32,447 nt of DNA from Deltaproteobacteria bacterium (GTDB taxonomy: Bacteria > Desulfobacterota > Syntrophobacteria > BM002), in NCBI GenBank assembly GCA_020353215.1, contig CP070692.1:451517-483963 (forward strand). Reading direction: 5' to 3'. Positions within the stretch are counted from its first letter, which is position 1. Every line of letters starts with the position of its first letter. The translations under genes were made by a program, and so were the position numbers. This document shows positions 16,537-17,109 of the stretch, in pieces. Under the pieces are notes generated by a model that saw only the letters and a program-made list of their open reading frames with translations, had not been told where the DNA came from and made no database searches.

Positions 16537-16944
16537 ATGAACAAGGTTCTCGCTGCGCTCATTGGTGTTACAGTACTAGTCATCATTTGGGAGGTCTTCT
16601 GGTGGGCATTAGGTGTTAGGCCCTTGCTGCCGTGGCGTTTAAAGGCATCTTTACACAATTACCCTGCCGAAGATCTGTACCTGGTTGATGTGAGAACTGC
16701 ATTCGAATATGAACTGTTCCACATTGACGGTGCAGAGAATCATCCGGAGCTTCTGCTCAACCCTGACCTGCTCAAAGAACAGGATCCAGGTAAAACGGTG
16801 GTGGCTATTTGCATGACCGGTCATCGGTCGCCCCTGGTCGCCTATGGGCTAAAAAGACGAGGCTTTCGAGAAGTTCATAATCTAACCTGGGGTATGGCAG
16901 GATGGTTGCTGAGCGGCGGGAGAATCAAGAAAGGAAAAGACTAG
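16537..16944 (+). CDS. Membrane-anchored rhodanese-domain protein
   Basis: 135 residues: an N-terminal TM helix (about 4-26) followed by a single rhodanese domain with LVDVRTAFEYELFHIDGAEN (49-68) and an active-site loop CMTGHRS with C92. The six-residue loop is typical of sulfurtransferases rather than Cdc25-type phosphatases. A sulfur-transfer or persulfide-binding role at the cytoplasmic membrane is inferred; the topology cannot be read from sequence alone. The stop codon TAG (16942-16944) lies inside the left terminal repeat of the 169-bp element, so the last residues and stop may have been altered by that insertion. The ribosome binding site is weak. Confidence 0.88.
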   Translation: MNKVLAALIGVTVLVIIWEVFWWALGVRPLLPWRLKASLHNYPAEDLYLVDVRTAFEYELFHIDGAENHPELLLNPDLLKEQDPGKTVVAICMTGHRSPLVAYGLKRRGFREVHNLTWGMAGWLLSGGRIKKGKD

Positions 16945-17109
16945 GAGTCTGTCGGAGTGCCTCCTTATTAGACAGTTGGTGGTCACTGTGGCCCTAATAC
17001 CACTTGGAAGCAGCGGCTAAAGTGGCCAATGTCGCACATATTTGCACTGAATGTGACACTTGCGTCCCTATGTTTATGTTGAAAGCTATGTAGTTCGACA
17101 GACTCCTAG
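16941..17109. mobile_element. MITE-like element with 14-bp perfect terminal inverted repeats
   Basis: CTAGGAGTCTGTCG (16941-16954) is exactly reverse-complemented at 17096-17109, enclosing 169 bp with no coding capacity. The match weakens but continues beyond 14 bp. The outermost CTAG on both sides would fit a YTAR-type (IS5-family) or TA target duplication, but being palindromic it cannot be told apart from the repeat itself. An internal imperfect dyad (GTCGCACAT/ATGTGAC) is present. No parental transposase is in the window. Confidence 0.5.

Follow-up and report, generated by a model that had tools for sequence, protein, structure and literature searches.

A MITE with IS1182-type ends at the CTAG stop codon of a rhodanese gene

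Insertion sequences of the IS1182 family offer the closest described systems for the element treated here. According to the report on IS1272 of Staphylococcus, this IS1182 member replaces stem-loops without target duplication, and palindromic targets are found in only some members of the family (PMC5678879). Our element has the family of its partner transposase and a palindromic target in common with IS1272. Unlike the situation reported for IS1272 (PMC5678879), the flanks beyond the CTAG are non-palindromic in 76 elements of this type and the CTAG is apparently duplicated. A second system is the Chunjie MITE of Geobacter uraniireducens, for which a review gives 178-235 bp (PMC10969869). Chunjie, too, is a many-copy MITE in a Geobacter genome and differs in size. 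A third system is a complete IS of the IS1182 family on a plasmid of Methylobacter sp. YRD-M1 (NZ_CP091426.1), whose ends and CTAG on both sides match our element; it is about 1.55 kb long and includes a transposase gene, whereas our element is non-coding and has 161 bp. In the literature, searched by titles and abstracts with subscription papers mostly beyond reach, no description of this MITE family was recognised.

The element and its second genomic copy

The window, i.e., the whole stretch of 32,447 nucleotides that was analysed, carries at 16537-16944 (forward strand) a gene for a rhodanese-domain protein of 135 aa, with PF00581 at residues 42-124; the assignment is based on the ORF, the domain match and orthologue lengths. 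Its stop codon TAG (16942-16944) lies within the CTAG that opens the segment 16941-17109. A first-pass annotation had described this segment as a 169-bp MITE-like element with perfect 14-base terminal inverted repeats, which is borne out by the arm comparison. The left arm (CTAGGAGTCTGTCG, 16941-16954, forward strand), whose ends recur identically in at least 120 elements, and the right arm (17096-17109, reverse strand) have 14 nt each, are complementary at 14 of 14 positions (100%) and are separated by 141 nt, and CTAG forms the outermost four bases of both. The annotation had further placed the rhodanese TAG in the left repeat and possibly in a CTAG target site. The TAG is indeed part of the outer CTAG, and empty sites in Geotalea (see below) suggest a duplication. 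From its own sequence and the second genomic copy, the MITE proper is assigned to 16945-17105 (161 bp), between two putative target-duplication copies at 16941-16944 and 17106-17109. Even with its flanks, the 169-bp element is short, non-coding and leaves no room for a transposase. At gathering score, no Rfam match overlapped any element from ten sources, the window segment included.

The MITE is located between the rhodanese stop and a second dispersed repeat (CTAGCCYG.AT.TTTCATGAATTG...), which starts at the MITE's right CTAG and extends from 17106 to about 17323. Its right end is approximate, and the probable inverted counterpart there is degenerate. This repeat was found at 11 further genomic places and opens with CTAG in seven of the eight other copies examined.

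The annotation had named a single-copy sequence, conserved at the locus in relatives and without related IS ends, as evidence against its reading. The sequence is not single-copy, and its ends are more than a chance arrangement: a search of the genome returned a second copy at G000:C1:928790-928959, 77% identical and on the opposite strand, which shares the ends and is bordered by CTAG on either side, in an ATTGG-CTAG...CTAG-CCAAT context. In the 4.70-Mb one-contig genome, exact matches to AGGAGTCTGTCGNA are confined to the termini of the two copies, four in all, and ends with at most two mismatches (49 and 57, versus 43 and 52 for the controls) stay near background. The window element gave no match in 11 other genomes of its family, in the other 394 of the 395 genomes of the phylum searched, or among plasmid sequences. 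A lone CTAGGAGTTTGTCGGA at 133112, beside a gene which we take to be OmpA-like, was discarded as a candidate, since by our estimate one-mismatch matches are about as frequent as chance predicts. Separately, a 119-bp segment bounded by inverted ends that resemble those of the MITE (GACTGTCGAAAA... / ...TTTTTCGACAGACTC), and lacking CTAG flanks, was observed in the region of G000:C1:1324595 (L017, 1394-1512).

Related elements, predicted partner transposase and target site

Paired ends at a spacing like that in the window occur in at least 117 stretches of public species genomes, comprising at least 120 elements, and 116 of 120 measure 158-166 bp from GGAG to CTCC. By record title, hosts among the first 80 matches listed are Mariprofundaceae, Nitrosomonas, Geotalea, Sedimenticola, Nitrospinaceae, Sulfurovum and others. 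Geotalea toluenoxydans carries 44 exact ends and Nitrosomonas C12 carries 80; copies at unrelated sites amount to two in our genome and to tens for the relatives in these two hosts. A Geotalea element gave only weak matches to phage sequences. A search of the collected loci with relaxed ends found 150 elements, and CTAG stands on both sides of 83 of the 147 with readable flanks. Most of the 120 elements share a common interior and are referred to as the main family; its model was made from 116 elements, of which 46 non-redundant ones were kept and those without an interior match left out. Since neither copy in the window genome matches this interior (1.0 bit for the window copy, none for the second), the window element is, by sequence comparison, a separate subfamily, tied to the main family via ends, length and CTAG.

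In the Methylobacter plasmid, the transposase gene is bounded by the ends CTAGGAGTCTGTCGGACTTA and TCCGACAGACTCCTAG, and its product reaches 369.7 bits against the model NF033551 transpos_IS1182 (cut-off 270). This provides the IS with the same ends for which the annotation had advised a search, and thus an autonomous counterpart. In the genomes of two hosts, G013 and G023, fragments of IS1182-type transposases adjoin these ends. The window element is a genuine MITE whose partner is of a known kind, while the partner role of the IS1182 transposase itself is predicted from the identity of the ends and the co-occurrence in hosts. Searches of the window genome detected neither a DUF772 nor an IS1182-type transposase, and for this reason its copies are probably immobile by now and represent a relic.

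Eleven sites in Geotalea toluenoxydans were examined against the corresponding position in relatives. The empty allele holds a single CTAG at five of the 11, cleanly at L224 and L236 and with further differences in the flanking bases at L229, L057 and L109. Another four-base word is present at L220 (CTCG), L234 (CCAT) and L226 (CCCG), and no clean single CTAG was seen at L106, L222 and L219:16940; later mutation or another target may account for the unclean sites. Because of the five single-CTAG alleles, the CTAG is best read as a 4-bp target duplication. This evidence comes from the main family, and the window copy itself presents CTAG on both sides; an empty allele was not found for the rhodanese locus. 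A longer palindromic target was rejected, as the flanks of the 76 elements show no complementarity at 15 positions beyond the CTAG, although the second genomic copy does lie in such a palindrome; likewise, insertion into longer stem-loops as by IS1272, which is not required of the whole IS1182 family, was not observed among these elements.

Gene ends at the element boundaries

Among ORFs of 100 codons or more near 240 boundaries, 35 have the TAG of the element's CTAG as their stop (position -2), compared with 0-4 ending at each other position up to 30 bases upstream, eight at +15 and nine at +75. Stop codons account for 19 of 46 non-genic insertions versus 13 of 68 non-genic background CTAGs (p=0.012; odds ratio 3.0, i.e., 19:27 vs 13:55), in a comparison covering the 51 of 120 elements that are bordered by CTA/TAG on either side and have flanks of 300 bp or more. 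Under stricter flank rules, which admitted 147 of the 240 boundaries, the figures are 28/147 against 67/706 other CTAG strands (p=0.0015). Insertions at stop-codon CTAGs are thus two- to three-fold above the local background, a modest excess among elements that are not independent within one genome. Three elements (L048, L129 and L134) have an ORF ending at their CTAG on both sides. ORFs end on both sides of L099 as well, with TTAG as the right flank when read along the gene's strand. For L048 and L099, one gene in either flank is covered by a Pfam match. At the element, HisG (290/290) and FlgE (538/538) stop exactly where their family models end, and CcsB, NadC and DapL stop close to that point. 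In Geotalea, the empty alleles end the protein at the same codon in five of five gene ends, four with CTAG and the fifth with GTAG; these ends were chosen because the gene ended there, and two L236 ends were left out.

This bears on the proposal of the first-pass annotation that the element may have shortened the rhodanese or redefined its C-terminus. Such an event would mean that the element brought its own stop, with CTAG as part of the terminal repeat, and that insertion close to the 3' end truncated or redefined the protein. The location of the TAG inside the terminal repeat fits this view, as do the empty alleles L220, L234 and L226 without an exact CTAG. We nevertheless consider it improbable. 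The length comparison suggested along with the proposal places the window protein within the range of its orthologues: five rhodaneses of the family with 58-66% identity end between two residues before and seven beyond its stop, using stops of their own (TAA, TAA, TGA, TAG and TGA). Moreover, four genes carry the identical CTAG stop in their empty alleles, and random truncation should spread over three frames, at odds with the accumulation of ORF ends at -2. The claim of a trimmed protein is therefore not upheld. At the window locus, the CTAG duplication most likely preserved the stop and no new one arose, a conclusion drawn by analogy with the Geotalea insertions. Different again is the possibility that the segment is not mobile and serves the host as a transcription terminator or 3'-stabilising hairpin. 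It directly follows a stop codon, its predicted RNA fold is stronger than that of shuffled sequences (z -4.2), and the related main family has a covarying hairpin. Against this, elements of this type are patchily distributed, occur at unrelated sites for which alleles without them exist, and have a matching IS; moreover, no long ORF ends at either boundary of the second genomic copy. We therefore regard a host terminator in place of a mobile element as highly improbable, whereas an element, once inserted, may act as a terminator. Least credible of all is an IS630 (Tc1/mariner-type) element. IS630 elements prefer CTAG and duplicate its TA, and the resulting C-TA...TA-G flanks would look identical to those found here. 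Yet PF13358 (DDE_3) was undetected in nine of the 13 hosts, among them the window genome, Geotalea and Nitrosomonas C12 (tens of ends), and the one complete IS that was found to carry these ends encodes a transposase of the IS1182 type.

We therefore hold it to be very probable that the window contains a non-autonomous MITE with IS1182-type ends, which duplicates CTAG and was inserted at the rhodanese stop with the stop left intact. An IS1182-type transposase would presumably cut at GAGTCTGTCG...CGACAGACTC, and the element would enter a 4-bp CTAG, which thereby becomes duplicated. Since CTAG reads TAG on both strands, stops would survive the insertion: on the upstream side if the CTAG contains the TAG stop of one gene, and on both sides if convergent genes have a CTAG in common. 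Such insertions should be harmless and hence persist, and we infer this to be the cause of the enrichment at stop codons. In the window, the element would have landed at the border of another repeat, on the CTAG with which the rhodanese gene ends. A mobile element could thus enter gene ends harmlessly if its target word carries the stop and is duplicated. For annotation, this calls for caution, as a stop codon within a transposon end need not indicate a truncated protein.

The hairpin and minor variants

The 46 non-redundant elements of the main family fold into a hairpin of 45 pairs, which is formed in 90.2% of the cells of the alignment. Changes on both sides occur in 31 pairs, and two-sided changes amount to 376 cells versus 29 cells with one-sided ones. 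Covariation is 0.454 compared with 0.142 in shuffles, none of 500 being as high; the hairpin was derived from the same alignment, so that the slide control is biased in its favour, and relatedness among the sequences can by itself give values above those of shuffles. As two-sided changes far outnumber one-sided ones, they hint at constraint or repair at the DNA level. For the window subfamily with its two sequences, a hairpin beyond the terminal repeats is not significant (12 of 200 shuffles were as good), and outside these repeats the pair shows nine one-sided changes and one two-sided change. The long covarying hairpin is a property of the related main family and not demonstrably of the window copy.

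From a wider point of view, it is conceivable, though less likely than not, that a widespread family of CTAG-targeting IS1182 MITEs uses CTAG stops, including those shared by convergent genes, as a safe harbour, and that its hairpin is kept as DNA, through single-strand recognition or hairpin-templated repair, rather than for an RNA function. A hairpin covarying across many groups makes it possible to ask, on a concrete example, whether the bodies of MITEs are kept up as DNA or as RNA.

A few arrangements among the collected loci deviate from the single full-length element. In Nitrosomonas C12, an end pair spaced at 2.0 kb (L162, 1993-4006) was considered as a full IS and rejected, as it encloses two ORFs, presumably resembling flhDC, and no ORF of transposase size. 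L074 (5452-5775) holds a tandem pair of elements with one CTAG common to both, an arrangement that would arise if one element entered the CTAG of another. Finally, 54-bp derivatives with little left beyond the two ends are present in Geotalea toluenoxydans at L219 (16940-16993) and L220 (612-665), and at the place of L219 the relative G024 has a full-length element.
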